Both the position numbers and the translations under genes were made by a program. Below are positions 6,411 through 13,195 of a stretch of 34,214 nucleotides of DNA, in pieces. Source of the stretch: Lysobacterales bacterium (GTDB taxonomy: Bacteria > Pseudomonadota > Gammaproteobacteria > Xanthomonadales > Rhodanobacteraceae); the NCBI GenBank assembly GCA_021324945.1, contig JAJPID010000064.1:1-34214 (forward strand), written 5' to 3'. The number at the start of each line of letters is the position of its first letter. The first letter of the stretch is position 1. The notes beneath the pieces are model-generated. The model had not been told where the DNA came from. It searched no databases and saw nothing but the letters and a program-made list of their open reading frames with translations.

Positions 6411-8642
6411 CTACTGTCCTGGATGATATGTCCGCTGGGTGTGCCCCTGCAGTTGCTCTGGCCAGAAATACACCGTGCGCAGGTTGCCGGTGGAGTAGCG
6501 CTCGGCTTCGTCGGTGAAGTGTTCGGAATCTTGGTGGCCGCTTTCGCCGCCGGCGGTGACGGCGCGCGCGGAGACTTTCGGCCCGAATTCGACCGCTGCG
6601 AGGAAGCTGTTGCCGCTGTTGCCGTAGTAGCGCTTCGTGCCGGGCCAGCGGTGCGCGCCGAAGGAAGCCAGCGAACCCCAGCGCGATGAGGTGAAAGGAA
6701 CGGGGATGCTCGGCTTGGCATCGTCGAAGTGCGGTTCAATCGAATCGTCCAGTCGCTGAAAACGATTGATCTCACCCCACGCCGTGCCCCAGCTTCCGAA
6801 ATCTTTTTGCAAACGGTCCGATGCTTCCCACAGCGCGTGCAGACGTTGCTGCGGCGTGGCCTTTTCGGCGATGTAGTCGTACACGCGCATGTTCGATGCG
6901 TGCGGATCGAGACCGCTGGCTTGCGCGGTGTCGTTCACTTCGTCCCACAGCGTGTCGCCCCAGAACACCGCCAGCGAAGTCGGCATCGATGCGACGCCCC
7001 AACGGTAATCCCAGGTGCGCAGCATCCGGATTTGGCCCGCGAGTCGCGACTTCAGCGGGTCGTTCGCGGGGAGTGCGTCGTAGTCTTTGACCAGAATCGG
7101 GATCAGCCGCGCGAACGCGGGCAAATACGAGTCGAACGCGTCGGTGATCAGCATCGGCACTGTCATGTCGCGTATGCCCTGCAACAGGGCGAGCGCGTGC
7201 ACGCCGCGCGGATTCTCGCCGAAGCTGTCCATGTATTGCGGATAGTCTTTTGCTTTAGGGCTGTTCGTGCCGGCCGCGGTCCAGGGCCAATTGTTGGTGT
7301 TGAACACCCAGCCGTTGGACGGATTGATGACGTTCGGCATTTCGTTCAGTGGAGTGAGTCCTTGCCAGTCGGTGGCAGGATTGCTGCCGTCCACAGGCTG
7401 GGTGTAATCGAAGCGATTGTCGCGCTTGGGAATGAACTGCGGCACCAGGAACGCGATCTCGCCCTTGTCGTCGGCGAACAGTGTGTTGTTGGATGAATTG
7501 GCCTTCAGCTCGGCGACTTTTTCGTAAGAAGCGTAATCGCTCGCCTTGGTGCGCAGGAAGCTCTGTTCCAGTGCTGAGACCGGACGGTTCATCAACGCTT
7601 CGGCGATCCACCTGCCGTTCTCGCTGCGCACGATTGGGCCGTGATGCGTGAAGTACGCGGTGAAACTGCGCGACTTCATCGAGCCGTCGCTCGCACGATA
7701 TTGGACGGTGATTTCGCGTGTCGTCACCGGCCGCAGTTCCTTGCCGTATCGATAAAACAACCGACCGTCCTGCTTGACGATGGTTTCTGCGAACTCATCC
7801 ACGTTGTCCACGCCGGTCGAGGTATGCATCCAGCCGATGTGCGGGTTGAAACCCTGATAGATGAAGAACTGGCCCCAGGTCGCGGCGCCATAAGCGTCCA
7901 GGCCCTCGTCGCTCGACATCTGGAGTTCCGAGCGGAAATAGAACGAGGTGTGCGGATTGATCCACAATAGGGCGTGGCCGTTTGCCGTCAATCTCGGCGC
8001 GATGGCGATGCCGTTGGAGCCGGTCGGCTCGGCCCAGCTCGCGGATTCCATTTGCGCCAGTGCGATCATCGTTGCGGGATCGGCGCCGTAGAACTTCGCG
8101 AGATCCGACAAGTCCACGCGCTCGATGTCGCCGCCGATGCTGCCTTCGGTAAAGGACAGCGCCATCCACGGCTCGAAATGCGTGATCACTTTGGGGTGCT
8201 GTTGCGGATGCGTGACGAGATACCAGTTCAAACCATCGGCCCACGCATTCATCAGCTTCTGCAACCATGCCGGCGATTGCGCGTAAAGTTTTTTCAATTC
8301 GACCGGGTCGACCCACAATTGTTGGCGTAGGTCTTGCCAGACATTCGCTGCGCCTTGCGCGCGTGCCGTCCAGCCTAGCGCTGTGAGGTAATTCGTTTCG
8401 ATGCGGTTGAAATCGTCCTCGGCCTGCGCGTAGATCGCGCCGAACACCGCATCGGCATCAGTCCGGCCGTGGACGTGCGCGATGCCCCAATCGTCGCGGA
8501 CGATCGTCACGTTTTGCGCTTCGGTTTGCAGACGTGTGCGCTCCGTCTCGGCGTGCGCGACGCCGGCGCACGATAAAGCCGATGCCGCGCACGCGATCAG
8601 GGCGCGGGCCGCGAGAAATCGAGGTTCACCAGTGGACTTCAT
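6411..8642 (-). CDS. Secreted penicillin acylase family Ntn-hydrolase (possible AHL acylase)
   Basis: 743 residues. The signal peptide runs to AHA at residue 31. The alpha subunit follows (TIVRDDWGIAHVHG, then AIYAQAEDDFNR), then the self-processing site TG-SNGIAIAP, where Ser209 becomes the N-terminal nucleophile of the beta subunit. The beta subunit has LLWINPHTSFYFRSE and WGQFFIYQGFNPHIGWMHTS. Enzymes of this family mature by autocleavage in the periplasm and hydrolyse amide bonds of beta-lactams, acyl-homoserine lactones or other N-acyl compounds; sequence alone does not fix the substrate. ATG at 8642 was chosen for the signal peptide and a GGAAGGGA ribosome site. It is monocistronic, divergent from undA; a 356-base gap lies upstream. 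Confidence 0.9.
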   Translation of the reverse strand: MKSTGEPRFLAARALIACAASALSCAGVAHAETERTRLQTEAQNVTIVRDDWGIAHVHGRTDADAVFGAIYAQAEDDFNRIETNYLTALGWTARAQGAANVWQDLRQQLWVDPVELKKLYAQSPAWLQKLMNAWADGLNWYLVTHPQQHPKVITHFEPWMALSFTEGSIGGDIERVDLSDLAKFYGADPATMIALAQMESASWAEPTGSNGIAIAPRLTANGHALLWINPHTSFYFRSELQMSSDEGLDAYGAATWGQFFIYQGFNPHIGWMHTSTGVDNVDEFAETIVKQDGRLFYRYGKELRPVTTREITVQYRASDGSMKSRSFTAYFTHHGPIVRSENGRWIAEALMNRPVSALEQSFLRTKASDYASYEKVAELKANSSNNTLFADDKGEIAFLVPQFIPKRDNRFDYTQPVDGSNPATDWQGLTPLNEMPNVINPSNGWVFNTNNWPWTAAGTNSPKAKDYPQYMDSFGENPRGVHALALLQGIRDMTVPMLITDAFDSYLPAFARLIPILVKDYDALPANDPLKSRLAGQIRMLRTWDYRWGVASMPTSLAVFWGDTLWDEVNDTAQASGLDPHASNMRVYDYIAEKATPQQRLHALWEASDRLQKDFGSWGTAWGEINRFQRLDDSIEPHFDDAKPSIPVPFTSSRWGSLASFGAHRWPGTKRYYGNSGNSFLAAVEFGPKVSARAVTAGGESGHQDSEHFTDEAERYSTGNLRTVYFWPEQLQGHTQRTYHPGQ

Positions 8643-8998
8643 GATGCCGTCCCTTCCGGCCGCACAGGCCGATCCGTTTCCATATAACACGCTCGCTGCG
8701 GCGGCGCGAACGGCTGCGGACGTGCGGCTCGCCCCCACAGGACGGACGAACCACGCAAAACCCGCCTGCACGCTTGCCGGCGGATATTCGCGGGGGTACG
8801 TTAGTGCCAAGCCGGAACGCCCCTGATGAGCCGGCGCGCGGGACACTTCTCGGCACATCTTGCTGTGTCCAACTCTCACTGTCGAACAGCATTCTTCCGG
8901 CATCGCTGCGTTGCCGGAGGGCGTCGGCACGCCGATGGCGCGCCGGCCGACCAACGCAGCACTTCCCGAAAAACGAATCCAATTTCAAGGAGACATCC
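8643..8998. other. Divergent control region between the acylase gene and undA
   Basis: 356 bases without a convincing gene, between two outward-reading genes, so it should hold both promoters. A 7-bp perfect hairpin (TCCGGCA / TGCCGGA) spans 8896-8918, about 80 bases before the undA start. An AT-rich spot (CATATAAC at about 8680) is the best place for an acylase -10 region but has no clear -35 partner. AAGGAG at 8987-8992 is the undA ribosome site. I see no recognisable operator. Confidence 0.5.
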
Positions 8999-9787
8999 AT
9001 GAACACCCGTTTTGAACTTGCCGGCCCCCTGACCGACATCCGCAGCTATCCGCAGTGGACGCAGGACATGGTCGCAGACTGCGACCGCGTCAAGCGCACC
9101 GTGGTAGAACACGAGCTGTGGGATCTGATGCGCAGCGGTGCCTTGGGCGCCGACGGCACCGCCAATTTCATGGTGGGCATCTGGCCGGTGATCGAGCGCT
9201 TCCCTGGCTACATGGCGCAGAGCCTGTTGAAGACGCGCTACGGACGCAGCGAGGGCGACAATCTGGCGCGCCGCTGGCTGGTGCGCAACATCCGCGTCGA
9301 ACAGAACCACGCCGAGTACTGGCTGGATTGGGCCGAGGGCGCGGGCGTGCCGCGCCAGCAGGTTTTGGAAGGAACACCGCCTTACGGCACGCAGGCATTG
9401 GCCAATTGGCTTGAAGAGATCAGCAGCCGGGGCTCGTTGGCTGCCGGCATTGCGGCCAGCAATTACGCGGTCGAGGGGGCCACGGGCGAGTGGTCGCAGA
9501 TCGTATATGACAGCCGCGAATATCAGGGGCTCTTCCCGCAAAATACGCGCAAGGCTTCTCTGCGATGGCTGCAATTGCACGCGGCCTACGACGACACCCA
9601 TCCTTGGGAAGCGCTGGAGATCGTGTGTACCTTGTTGGGCGCCTCGCCACGCCCGGAAGAAGTGGCGCATATTGGGGAGTGCATCAAGCGCAGCTACAGA
9701 AGCATGTGCATCAGCATGGACAGCTGTTACCGCGGGTTGCGGCTGCAGGAAGAAGGTGCCTCATTTCAGGTCGTTGCCGCTGCTTGA
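8999..9787 (+). CDS. undA: UndA-like diiron oxidase (medium-chain fatty acid to 1-alkene)
   Basis: 262 residues of the haem-oxygenase-like diiron superfamily (often mislabelled TenA). The iron ligands fall at Glu101, His104, Glu159, His194, Asp198 and His201, which is the same set and numbering I recall for Pseudomonas UndA (261 residues). Surrounding blocks also match it from memory: VVEHEL, YMAQ, RRWL-RNIRVE-NHA-YW, NYA-EGATGEWS and HA-YDD-HPWEALEI-CTL. UndA oxidatively decarboxylates lauric and related acids (C10-C14) to terminal alkenes such as 1-undecene. It is cytosolic with no signal peptide. ATG at 8999 has AAGGAG six bases upstream. It is followed after 49 bases by a GGDEF-EAL gene. 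Alternative: another member of the HDO family with a different small substrate. Confidence 0.85.
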   Translation: MNTRFELAGPLTDIRSYPQWTQDMVADCDRVKRTVVEHELWDLMRSGALGADGTANFMVGIWPVIERFPGYMAQSLLKTRYGRSEGDNLARRWLVRNIRVEQNHAEYWLDWAEGAGVPRQQVLEGTPPYGTQALANWLEEISSRGSLAAGIAASNYAVEGATGEWSQIVYDSREYQGLFPQNTRKASLRWLQLHAAYDDTHPWEALEIVCTLLGASPRPEEVAHIGECIKRSYRSMCISMDSCYRGLRLQEEGASFQVVAAA

Positions 9788-9810
9788 TCTGGTATGCAAT
9801 GTGCATGGTA

Positions 9811-9831
9811 CGTGGCTCACACTGAGCCACG
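9811..9831 (+). promoter_or_regulatory. Hairpin just before the GGDEF-EAL start
   Basis: CGTGGCTCA, loop CAC, TGAGCCACG: a perfect 9-bp foldback between undA and the next gene, ending five bases before the ATG at 9837. It occupies the place where a ribosome site would be, and no AGGAG-like sequence is visible there. It may limit translation of the downstream gene, act as a weak terminator or processing site, or mean that the true start is elsewhere. Confidence 0.5.
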
Positions 9832-9836
9832 AACCC

Positions 9837-12581
9837 ATGCGCGGCGGCCAAATACCACTGGAGCGCTCGTTATCCAAACGGCTGTTGCCGCTGGCCTACG
9901 GGTTGGCGGCACTGGTGGCATTTATCGTCGCGCTCACTTGGGGGGCCTTGCAGGTTCAAATAGCTCTGGCTGGCCTGATGAATGGCGAGAGCATCTGGTC
10001 CAAGGCGCAGAAACAGTCAGTTATTGATCTGGCTTCATACGGGGTCAACGGAGACGAACGACGGTTGGTCGACTTCCGCCGCAACTATGTGGTGCTGAGA
10101 TCCGATGCTTGGGCACGCGATGCGATTGCCTCCGGGCACTTTGACAGGCCTGCGGTCGTCGCCGCTTTTCGCAGGGGCAGCGTTATCCCAGACGCCATCC
10201 CCGGAATGATTTTTATTTTCGAACACCTCGCGGATGCACCGTATGTTCGGGACGCGCTGCAGGAATGGCACTCCGTGGACGGTGCCATCAAGGAACTGGA
10301 CCAGATCGCTTTGCAGTTAGAGCAGCGGCACCGCTCCAGTAAAGACCTCCGACCGGACGAAATAGAACGTGTAGAGGCCCGCATCCACGCGTTGAACGCG
10401 TTTATCGAGCCTCACGCAAACCACTTTTCGTTGGAAATTGCCCTTGGCGCATCCTGGGCTGGCCGGATGCTGTTCATCGGCGAATTGTTCGCCGCTTGCG
10501 TTGCACTTGGGTTGTGGCTTCTGCTGGCGCGACGCACGCTCCAGCGTATCCGCGGCACGGAGGAGCGTTACCGGCTGCTTTTCGACAGCGCCGCCGATGC
10601 GATCGTGATGGTGGACGAGAACAGCGGCCACATCCTCGACGCCAACCGCACTGCTTCGACCTGGCTAGGCCGGGATCAGGGCGATCTGCGCGGTGTGCCG
10701 TTCGCGGACCTGTTCGCGAAATCCACCAGCCGCGAAGACGTCGGCGTTGGCCTCCTGCGCGGCGCACGCGGCGAACGGCCGGTGGAAACGCAGAGCAGCC
10801 TCACGGTGTGGGGCGATCGTGTCGTGCGGCAGGCGATCATCCGCGACATCAGCGAGCGCGTGGAGCGCGAACGCGAGCGCCGCATCGCCGCCGAAGCGCT
10901 GGCCGGCATCGCCGAAGGCGTGATCATCGCCGATGCCGATCGCCGCGTGCTCTCCATCAACGCGGCCGCGGCGCAGATCACCGGCTTCACGGTCGAAAGC
11001 CTTTCCGGGCTGCGGCTGGACGATGCACGCAGCCTGCCCGATGGGAGCCCGCTGCCGGCGTCGATCTGGGATGAAGTCGCGGCCGGACGCAACTGGACCG
11101 GCGAAGTGCAGAGCCTGCGCAGCAACGGCAGCACCTATCCGGAAAAACTCAGCATCAGCGCGATCCGGGATGGCGAACGCGTGCTGCATTACGTCGCGGT
11201 GTTCAGCGATATTTCGGTGGTGAAGGCCGATCGCCGCCGGCTGGAACATCTCGCCACGCACGATCCGCTCACCGGTCTGGTGAACCGCGCGGAATTCGAG
11301 CGGCGTTGCGCCGAAGCCATCGCGCACGCCGCGCGCGAACGTAGCGCGGCGGCGGTGTTGTTCATCGATCTCGACGCTTTCAAGTTCGTCAACGACAGCT
11401 ACAGCCACGGCATCGGCGACCGCTTGCTGGCGCTGGTGGCCGAGCGCATACAGAAGCAGCTCGGGCGCGCCGACGTGGCCGGGCGCATCGGCGGCGACGA
11501 ATTCACCGTGCTGGCGCGCGGGCTGGTATTGCGCGAAGACGCCGCCGCGCTGGCTGGACGCCTGCTCGCCACCTTGTCAGAGCCCTTCGTGGTGGACGAA
11601 TACGAAATCGTGCTGAGTGCCAGCATCGGCATCGCCGGGTTCCCGCTGGACGGCGCCGATGCGCCCACGCTGATCGCCAATGCGGACGCGGCGATGTATG
11701 CGGCCAAGAGCGAGGAGCGCAATGCGTACCGCTTCTACGCGCCGATGATGCACGCCGACACGCGCAAGCGCCTGCAACTTGCGGCGGAGTTGCGGCAGGC
11801 CTTGCTGCGCGACGAATTCCGGCTGGTCTATCAACCGAGCGTGGAATTGCGCAGTGGTCGCATCGTGGCGGTCGAGGCGCTGCTGCGCTGGCAACATCCC
11901 GAGCGCGGCGAAGTGCTGCCGGGAGAATTCATCCCTGTGGCGGAAAGCACCGGCGTGATCCATCGCATCGACGAATGGGTGATGCGCAGTGTGTGCGCGC
12001 AACTGCACGCATGGGATCGCGCCGGTCTGCCGCCAATCCGCGTGGCGGTGAATGTGTCGGCTCGCTGGTTCGGACATCCGGCCTTCATCGAAAGCGTCAG
12101 CCGCGCACTGCAATCCAATGGCGTGGCCGCGCAGCGGATTCTTCTGGAAATCACCGAAGGCGCAATGCTGCGCTTGGGTGAGGACACCGAAAGCAAGATG
12201 CAGGCGCTGGCGCGGCTGGGTCTGGCGGTGGCGATCGACGACTTCGGAACTGGCTACTCCTCGATGGCGTACCTGAAACTGCCAGCGGTGGCCTATCTGA
12301 AAATTGACCGTTCCTTCATCACAGGCCTGCCGGGCGACATCAACGATGCGGCGATCACCGAAGCGATGCTGGCGATGGCGAAGAGTTTGAATCTCACGCC
12401 GATCGCCGAAGGCATCGAAACCGAGGCGCAGCATGAATTCCTGCTGCGCGCCGGTTGTGCCGAAGGGCAGGGCTATCTCTATTCGTATCCGCTGCCCGCG
12501 CCTGCGATCGAACGCATGCTGCTGCCCAAGCCTGTGCCGACCGCAGGCAAGTTGAAATTGGTGCCGCCGAAGCGGGGCTGA
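9837..12581 (+). CDS. Membrane PAS-PAS-GGDEF-EAL protein, RbdA-like
   Basis: 914 residues. TM1 lies at about 16-38 and TM2 at about 211-233, flanking a periplasmic sensor region of about 170 residues with no family I recognise. PAS1 spans about 240-345, PAS2 about 354-470, GGDEF about 472-640 (intact GGDEF at 552-556), and EAL about 655-895 (Glu680 in EALLR, DDFGTGYSS from 801, LEITE, KIDRSF, AEGIE). The EAL catalytic set looks complete, so cyclic-di-GMP phosphodiesterase activity is likely; GGDEF may make c-di-GMP or act as a GTP-sensing switch. The I-site RxxD is not intact (GRAD at 543-546). As I recall, P. aeruginosa RbdA (PA0861) has this layout and sits next to undA. ATG 9837 is the first start before TM1; GTG 9801 is possible. 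Confidence 0.9.
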   Translation: MRGGQIPLERSLSKRLLPLAYGLAALVAFIVALTWGALQVQIALAGLMNGESIWSKAQKQSVIDLASYGVNGDERRLVDFRRNYVVLRSDAWARDAIASGHFDRPAVVAAFRRGSVIPDAIPGMIFIFEHLADAPYVRDALQEWHSVDGAIKELDQIALQLEQRHRSSKDLRPDEIERVEARIHALNAFIEPHANHFSLEIALGASWAGRMLFIGELFAACVALGLWLLLARRTLQRIRGTEERYRLLFDSAADAIVMVDENSGHILDANRTASTWLGRDQGDLRGVPFADLFAKSTSREDVGVGLLRGARGERPVETQSSLTVWGDRVVRQAIIRDISERVERERERRIAAEALAGIAEGVIIADADRRVLSINAAAAQITGFTVESLSGLRLDDARSLPDGSPLPASIWDEVAAGRNWTGEVQSLRSNGSTYPEKLSISAIRDGERVLHYVAVFSDISVVKADRRRLEHLATHDPLTGLVNRAEFERRCAEAIAHAARERSAAAVLFIDLDAFKFVNDSYSHGIGDRLLALVAERIQKQLGRADVAGRIGGDEFTVLARGLVLREDAAALAGRLLATLSEPFVVDEYEIVLSASIGIAGFPLDGADAPTLIANADAAMYAAKSEERNAYRFYAPMMHADTRKRLQLAAELRQALLRDEFRLVYQPSVELRSGRIVAVEALLRWQHPERGEVLPGEFIPVAESTGVIHRIDEWVMRSVCAQLHAWDRAGLPPIRVAVNVSARWFGHPAFIESVSRALQSNGVAAQRILLEITEGAMLRLGEDTESKMQALARLGLAVAIDDFGTGYSSMAYLKLPAVAYLKIDRSFITGLPGDINDAAITEAMLAMAKSLNLTPIAEGIETEAQHEFLLRAGCAEGQGYLYSYPLPAPAIERMLLPKPVPTAGKLKLVPPKRG

Positions 12582-12743
12582 TCCGTTCCGGTGCCGGGCC
12601 GCTCATGCCCGGGGGCGCTGGCCACGTATTCGTGGTATTCCAGAACACTCGAGCCACACTCAGCCGCATTGCGCACTATCCGCTTGCAGGCTGCGAGATT
12701 CGCCTTCGGCACCGGCACCAAGAAACCATCGGGGATAGCTCAT
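12582..12743 (-). pseudogene. DUF1428 (YbaA-like) gene remnant
   Basis: The ATG at 12741-12743 sits 11 bases after the YciI-like gene's stop with an AAGGAA ribosome site, but reads only MSYPRWFLG... in frame. Shifting frame by one base after the fourth codon gives DGFLVPVPKANLAACKRIVR followed by an LEYHEYVAS segment, which is the N-terminal third of DUF1428 proteins (typical start M-YVDGF-VPVPK). The CCCC run at the break suggests a one-base insertion. About 70 C-terminal residues are missing; the reading runs into the end of the convergent GGDEF-EAL gene. So there are two lesions: frameshift and truncation. A GC hairpin (CCGGGC / GCCCGG) at 12594-12612 lies in the remnant. Confidence 0.6.
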
Positions 12744-12754
12744 GGCAGGTTCCT

Positions 12755-13195
12755 TCAACACTGCGTCTTGCCATGTTCGCGCCGGCGCGCCTGCTGCCCC
12801 CGGAGTCGCGCATCCTGTTCGCGCATTTCCGGCGTCAGCGCGTCGCCGAAGTCCTCCGCCTCGAGCACGGGGCGGATTTCCACCGTCTCGCCGCCATCGA
12901 ACGGCGCGCGCTTCAGCCATTCGATGGCTTCGTCGATCGATTTCACCTGCCACATCCAGAAGCCGGCGACCAGCTCCTTGGTTTCGGTGAACGGGCCGTC
13001 GATCACGCGCCGCTGCTTGCCGTCGAATTGCACGCGCACGCCTTTCGATGTGGGATGCAGGCCTTCGCCTTCCAGCATCACGCCGGCCTTCACCAGTTCC
13101 TCGTTGTACTTGCCCATCGCTTCCAGCAATTCGCGGCTGGGCATCACGCCCGCTTCGGAATCCGCATTGGCTTTCACCAGCACCATGACTCGCAT
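12755..13195 (-). CDS. YciI family protein (DGPF domain)
   Basis: 146 residues starting MRVMVLVKANADSEAG, with the signature DGPFTETKELVAGFW in the middle and a WLKRAPF-GGETVEIRP end, as in the ferredoxin-like YciI/DGPF family. A C-terminal tail of about 25 charged residues (EQDARLRGQQARRREHG) extends beyond the domain. Function is unknown; relatives are often encoded beside ECF sigma factors. ATG at 13195 has a GGAGAA ribosome site. It appears intact although both neighbours (DUF1428 downstream, MoaD/BNR upstream and divergent) are broken. Confidence 0.88.
   Translation of the reverse strand: MRVMVLVKANADSEAGVMPSRELLEAMGKYNEELVKAGVMLEGEGLHPTSKGVRVQFDGKQRRVIDGPFTETKELVAGFWMWQVKSIDEAIEWLKRAPFDGGETVEIRPVLEAEDFGDALTPEMREQDARLRGQQARRREHGKTQC

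Follow-up and report, generated by a model that had tools for sequence, protein, structure and literature searches.

Why does the gene of a predicted alkene-forming enzyme lie directly beside that of a membrane protein of cyclic di-GMP (c-di-GMP) turnover? The question is raised by two adjacent genes in a 34,214-nt stretch of DNA from a Lysobacterales bacterium (assembly GCA_021324945.1, contig JAJPID010000064.1), here called the window; in its genome, which measures 2.5 Mb at 99% completeness, it is contig C28. A first reading of the letters (the original prediction) took the genes for undA and an rbdA-like gene and suggested that they form a conserved two-gene module. The undA–partner pairing was found to be real: in the two bacterial families sampled, UndA predicts the partner, and the partner does not predict UndA.

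The first protein is, judged by its sequence, a UndA-family fatty-acid decarboxylase. Pfam placed it in Haem_oxygenas_2 (PF14518; 42.3 bits against a cut-off of 28.9), and a phmmer search of the PDB sequences returned 4wwj/4wwz/4wx0, 6p5q and 3oql at 251–254 bits (E 1.7e-74 to 8.9e-74, residues 4–245), the next chain following only at E 0.48. The record names are UndA for 6p5q and TenA homolog for 3oql. For UndA, the available text of PMC13108848 describes a 3H/3C diiron motif, the conversion of lauric acid to 1-undecene and a role of W190. The six ligands named in the original prediction (E101, H104, E159, H194, D198 and H201) were all invariant, with the same numbering, in a 5-row alignment and in a 19-row alignment in which UndA proteins of the window's family stand with those of Pseudomonas-type genomes and of two far relatives; the W190 radical site was invariant in both as well. 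In a phylogeny, the window protein grouped with the crystallised enzymes, and a branch with 92/84 support separated it from six other PF14518 proteins, taken from 11 available rows of other heme-oxygenase-like diiron proteins; the predicted membership of the UndA clade was upheld, while the exact root is unsure because of the long outgroup branches and the unsettled bootstrap. With the A3 profile, full-length UndA proteins scored 262–422 bits and a 123-aa fragment 100 bits, and none of the other heme-oxygenase-like diiron proteins listed, 10 of the 11 that were tried, scored above 20.2 bits. The window protein thus resembles the Pseudomonas enzymes (4wwj, 6p5q, 3oql) in identity (45–46% over the 4wwj and 3oql stretches), ligands, W190, length and clade, but differs in that its gene and that of the c-di-GMP partner stand in reversed order.

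The second protein had been described as a membrane PAS-PAS-GGDEF-EAL protein, which agrees with its Pfam domains and with two membrane segments predicted by hydropathy (residues ~14–48 and ~208–235). Because these segments flank them, residues ~50–205 are predicted to be periplasmic. GGDEF and EAL motifs were present together with further motif blocks of the EAL domain, which we take to be catalytic. The protein thus shows the traits of the RbdA type, namely a periplasmic domain between two transmembrane (TM) segments and the order PAS-GGDEF-EAL with its motifs. The likeness to RbdA (PA0861) lies in the homologous periplasmic domain: the N-terminal 240 residues were 25–29% identical to those of seven Pseudomonas-type RbdA genes (E 4.5e-12 to 9.7e-20), and E51, W54, K56, Q58, R94, W144, D148 and F197 were common to the window and the Pseudomonas-type sensors. 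No Pfam family was found for this sensor domain when 34 members were scanned to E 0.1, which yielded seven weak, unrelated names (best E 0.012, each in at most two members), and no close solved relative was found among the PDB sequences (best E 0.33). RbdA itself is a c-di-GMP phosphodiesterase. A model of its periplasmic domain consists of helices only and encloses a large cavity, and the physiological ligand of RbdA was called unknown (PMC11372557).

Within the window's family, the pairing was followed in contigs and in genomes. The contig scan covered the best 80 of 533 matches, near kin only. The nearest relative found was a proteobacterial metagenome assembly with 82% UndA identity and the same neighbouring genes, and the named contigs belonged chiefly to Rhodanobacter, Dyella, Frateuria, Oleiagrimonas, Rudaea and their kin, from which the family sampled with 127 genomes was read as Rhodanobacteraceae. 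By tblastn, the sensor region of the partner lay downstream of undA on the same strand in all 80 loci, with gaps of 31–209 bp between the genes; the GGDEF part could be seen in 76 of them, the EAL part in 75. The contig end cut the partner in L030 and in L037, L075 and L078, all three without the EAL part, and the partner frame was interrupted in L027. The 127 genomes contained 87 UndA copies in 85 genomes, and each of the 87 was followed directly by the sensor domain on the same strand, 68–246 bp separating the two profile matches. UndA without the sensor gene occurred in none of the genomes and a sensor match without UndA in 11, one of which (G826) was a 31-residue match at a contig end. Two genomes (G757 and G840) had two UndA copies each, every copy with its own partner in the usual order. 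Interrupted or short partner reading frames were seen in L027, L088 and G867:C1:1371551.

Such proximity is rare for other genes at the same loci. With the UndA partner set aside, 23 of 949 other genes (2.4%) had a GGDEF/EAL neighbour; by an equal measure, 73 of 77 called undA genes did, the genes counted being those called by a crude procedure, which failed to call undA in 3 of the 80 loci. The four undA genes without such a neighbour were those of L027, L037, L075 and L078, where a contig end truncates the partner or its frame is interrupted. Position +1 was occupied by the partner cluster in 72 of the 77 called loci, whereas elsewhere between positions −6 and +6 the commonest cluster reached at most 21 of 69. 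No conserved third gene stood out beside the pair when the genes of the 80 loci were clustered; the pair is kept while the flanking genes turn over.

A second family, sampled with 89 genomes, was read as Pseudomonadaceae, since its UndA proteins fall into one group with the PDB sequences and that of a P. aeruginosa record. Here 13 genomes carried UndA, and in all 13 the sensor gene preceded it on the same strand; the sensor match ended 1808–1826 bp before undA, as expected for an intervening PAS-GGDEF-EAL part. The supposition that P. aeruginosa rbdA adjoins the undA homologue proved right: in the P. aeruginosa record (L183), the gene upstream of undA was RbdA (PA0861), with 1279 bits to PDB 5xgb. 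The Pseudomonas undA–rbdA pairing is already in print and is counted as known here, because the available text of PMC10614000 credits Rui et al. 2014 with the finding that, in various Pseudomonas, undA is always accompanied by rbdA. In both that pair and the pair in the window, UndA adjoins a membrane protein of the build sensor-PAS-GGDEF-EAL, and the periplasmic domains are homologous. The two pairs differ in that the partner is upstream in Pseudomonas and downstream in the window, has one PAS stretch rather than two, and has a GGDEF-EAL core in a different tree group. With 87 of 87 and 13 of 13 UndA copies paired in two families, the pairing is not confined to one or two genomes. In one Pseudomonas-type genus group (L092–L096, L181), an extra convergent GGDEF gene lay just downstream, leaving undA flanked on both sides by c-di-GMP genes.

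Pairs were also encountered outside these families. A plasmid collection gave 14 matching places in 12 records, and the best place of each record was examined; the P. aeruginosa record above is one of the 12. An RbdA-type gene stood 13 bp upstream of undA on a plasmid of Caballeronia sp. M1242 (sensor E 4e-54) and 19 bp upstream on one of B. ambifaria (sensor E 8e-36). The B. ambifaria plasmid (NZ_CP086300.1, L186) was typed as conjugative, and its pair lay between transposition genes and recombinase genes. All four A. baumannii records had a divergent GGDEF protein beside UndA (Pfam for one record). The Methylibium and Caballeronia NK8 matches were fragments, with no c-di-GMP gene found nearby. 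UndA occurred in 3 of 369 genomes drawn from the class, including G210 and G260; in G260, the N-terminus of the partner followed UndA and was cut by the contig end. Far UndA proteins (~35%) were followed by a GAF-PAS-GGDEF-EAL gene in G544 (L108), directly preceded by a GGDEF-EAL gene in G210 (L109), and in G905 accompanied by a GGDEF gene ~0.8 kb off, with another reading frame between.

The description of the partner as RbdA-like clearly held for the periplasmic domain only; the gene order is reversed, and the GGDEF-EAL core scored closer to other proteins. In two Pseudomonas-type genomes, the RbdA-type gene was 32–34% identical to the window protein in the PAS-GGDEF-EAL part and was outscored by other matches, 13 of 22 in one genome and 12 of 30 in the other. 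In the genome G635 it ranked 14th among 22 matches, with 203 bits where others reached up to 454. Among the PDB sequences, the window partner matched 5m3c (404 bits) and 4rnh (349 bits), presumably RmcA and MorA, better than RbdA (5xgb, 208 bits). In trees of 65 proteins with a full core (L162–L173, L033, L143, L144, L151 and L153 were among those failing the filter), the UndA-linked cores of the Rhodanobacteraceae stood apart from the RbdA/orphan cores, each set forming a group of its own with 100/100 support. One clade of all sensor-bearing cores was nevertheless not rejected by the approximately unbiased (AU) test (p 0.42 and 0.154). The groups for these tests were defined after viewing the first FastTree; the p 0.154 run omitted 6 of the 65 proteins and the p 0.42 run 13 (near-copies, long branches, L108, L109), and L141, which lacks undA, was counted with the UndA-linked group in both. 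The separation of window-type and RbdA-type cores suggests an exchange of the output core, and since the AU test leaves a single clade standing, a proven core swap is not claimed.

In the tree of the sensor domain, UndA-free sensors split the UndA-linked sensors of the Rhodanobacteraceae from those of Pseudomonas and Burkholderiaceae, and a single clade of UndA-linked sensors was rejected (AU p 0.000112, and 0.00077 without long and doubtful rows). These tests, the groups of which were likewise defined after a first FastTree, used 55 rows, the first run omitting 8 loci and the second 16; L141 and L142 were grouped as UndA-linked in the first and omitted from the second, as was L143, an UndA-free sensor inside the Rhodanobacteraceae group. 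Because the UndA-linked sensors do not form one clade and the gene order is reversed, at least two linkages are favoured, and UndA and the sensor probably became linked more than once. Alternatively, the pair could be old and UndA repeatedly lost from it. Further cases of linkage would be the far UndA proteins that lie next to unrelated c-di-GMP proteins. In L141 and L142, which are of one genus, a Rhodanobacteraceae-type partner was kept and undA was gone; the upstream genes belonged to one cluster, with an FGE-sulfatase domain in L141.

The Pfam-less RbdA-type sensor domain was borne by GGDEF-EAL, GGDEF-only and histidine kinase–response regulator proteins (L143, L144, L162–L173). The idea that the domain is specific to UndA was ruled out by UndA-free bearers, including the histidine kinase hybrid L143 and the GGDEF-only L144; because it is also found without UndA, the domain is not alkene-specific by default. 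Other fatty-acid enzymes beside UndA-free sensors were not borne out in a scan of 10 neighbours, one each at 10 of 19 loci.

A literature search returned PMC10614000 as the sole match naming both genes, and no match that names undA, undecene and c-di-GMP together or 1-undecene together with GGDEF, most subscription journals being outside its coverage. Within the same coverage, no report was found of the second family, the reversed order, the different core, the Burkholderiaceae plasmids or the recurrence, which we regard as new. Literature on alkenes of Dyella and Rhodanobacter contained no mention of undecene among the matches listed.

What the partner might do for UndA is suggested by published mutant work. 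In P. fluorescens MFE01, a delta-undA mutant fails in biofilm maturation, pure or neighbour-emitted 1-undecene restores it, and the detection mechanism was called unknown in the available text of PMC10614000. We hypothesize that cytoplasmic UndA would use iron and O2 to decarboxylate a fatty acid of medium chain length (C12 in Pseudomonas), which would yield a terminal alkene. This hydrophobic product, or its fatty-acid precursor, would accumulate in the envelope and be bound by the periplasmic sensor domain of the partner. Binding would switch the phosphodiesterase, hence c-di-GMP and hence the choice between biofilm and motility. When the linkage and the printed delta-undA and 1-undecene results are combined, sensing of product or substrate is the most economical reading. 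We therefore tentatively favour an enzyme-plus-sensor module, in which the sensor reads the UndA product or substrate and adjusts c-di-GMP, while stopping a little short of calling it probable; we infer both that the alkene or the fatty acid is the ligand and which way the switch turns. In a bolder form, possible yet distinctly more doubtful, UndA and the RbdA-type partner would be a synthase–receptor pair for a volatile hydrocarbon, the ligand of RbdA would be 1-undecene or a homologue, and selection for this link would have brought UndA and c-di-GMP sensors together on several occasions, in both orders and with different cores. A precedent is the synthase PhcB and the sensor PhcR for volatile 3-OH PAME, mentioned in the available text of PMC10614000. 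The likeness is in the idea of an enzyme-made volatile read by a sensor; no sequence relation is claimed, and for the window pair such a reading by the sensor is proposed from gene linkage.

Several observations weigh against such a module. The sensor domain occurred without UndA in 21 of 108 matches in the window's family, in 9 of 22 in the Pseudomonas-type family and in 11 of 13 positive genomes of the class draw (only G000 and G260 had both), and the UndA-linked sensors were set apart by six weak columns only. Upstream of UndA, C. zhejiangensis had only a 171-aa EAL remnant, a decayed copy. In Caballeronia SBC1 and SBC2 (L185, L221), UndA stood behind a receiver-PAS-histidine kinase, a signalling neighbour of another kind, and a 214-aa protein with a response-regulator-like start was present too (Pfam for SBC1 only); no c-di-GMP gene turned up within 6 kb, nor did one in 11 kb around the far UndA (~35%) of G936. 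The unrejected single clade of cores belongs here as well, as does the role of RbdA in dispersal, which according to the available text of PMC10746223 spans several other cues (glutamate, nitric oxide (NO) and cis-2-decenoic acid).

Some of these points favour a co-regulated programme without sensing, in which UndA and the phosphodiesterase would share a biofilm or dispersal stage, the sensor would read another signal, from the envelope or the environment, and the alkene would be a parallel output. The many UndA-free bearers of the sensor domain, the kinase hybrid and the GGDEF-only protein among them, and the dispersal cues served by RbdA fit this explanation. Co-regulation alone leaves unexplained why UndA is paired exclusively in both families and why the linkage apparently recurred in the opposite order, and we consider it rather unlikely. 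Less likely still is that free medium-chain fatty acids or related acyl compounds in the envelope are what the sensor reads and UndA removes, which would make the pair a device for fatty-acid homeostasis and lifestyle switching and not an alkene receptor. UndA substrates are free C10–C14 fatty acids (available text of PMC10614000), acyl chains could fit into the modelled RbdA cavity, in which docking placed a C8 acyl-homoserine lactone (PMC11372557), and a penicillin-amidase-type acylase gene is divergent beside undA in the window. An acylase relative was, however, within 10 kb of undA in only 19 of the 80 loci by tblastn (16 of 80 by clustering) and is not a conserved neighbour, and pure 1-undecene alone restored the MFE01 mutant phenotype. 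A neutral linkage kept from an ancestor would suit the inheritance of the pair within each family, and repeated UndA loss from an old pair could also yield the sensor tree, but it is very improbable given the retention of the pair amid flanking turnover, the low base rate of GGDEF/EAL neighbours, the reversed order between families, the two pairs in each of two genomes and the pairs on plasmids.

The layout of the locus is given in Table 1. A simple scan of positions 8600–12,900 found neither terminator-like sites on the + strand nor sigma-70-like promoters, and from their arrangement undA and the partner are likely to be on one transcript. No Rfam element matched in the window at gathering scores. 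The acylase gene (penicillin-amidase family) lies at 6411–8648 on the − strand and matched PvdQ weakly (83.5 bits against a cut-off of 950). Acylase relatives near undA in the 80 loci were on the minus strand in every case by tblastn, at variable distance.

Table 1. Features of the undA–partner locus (positions in the window).
Feature	Position	Strand	Description
undA-family gene	8999–9787	+	ATG at 8999, stop 9785–9787; 262 aa; heme-oxygenase-like diiron fatty-acid decarboxylase (predicted)
Intergenic gap, 49 bp	9788–9836	+	Both genes on the same strand; no + strand terminator-like site in a simple scan
Partner gene	9837–12,581	+	ATG at 9837, stop 12,579–12,581; 914 aa; membrane sensor-PAS-PAS-GGDEF-EAL, predicted c-di-GMP phosphodiesterase
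Two TM segments and periplasmic sensor domain	9837–10,556	+	Residues 1–240; homologous to that of RbdA; no Pfam family
PAS region	10,563–11,213	+	Pfam: PAS_8 stretch 243–289, PAS stretch 355–459
GGDEF domain	11,253–11,723	+	Pfam residues 473–629; GGDEF motif at residue 552
EAL domain	11,784–12,491	+	Pfam residues 650–885; motif blocks present

Two questions meet in this pair of genes, namely what RbdA binds (PMC11372557) and how P. fluorescens detects 1-undecene (available text of PMC10614000). The near-obligate and probably recurrent link between enzyme and sensor points to binding of the alkene or its precursor by the sensor domain as the question to ask. With it, the Rhodanobacteraceae and some Burkholderiaceae plasmids are added as predicted alkene producers with c-di-GMP control.

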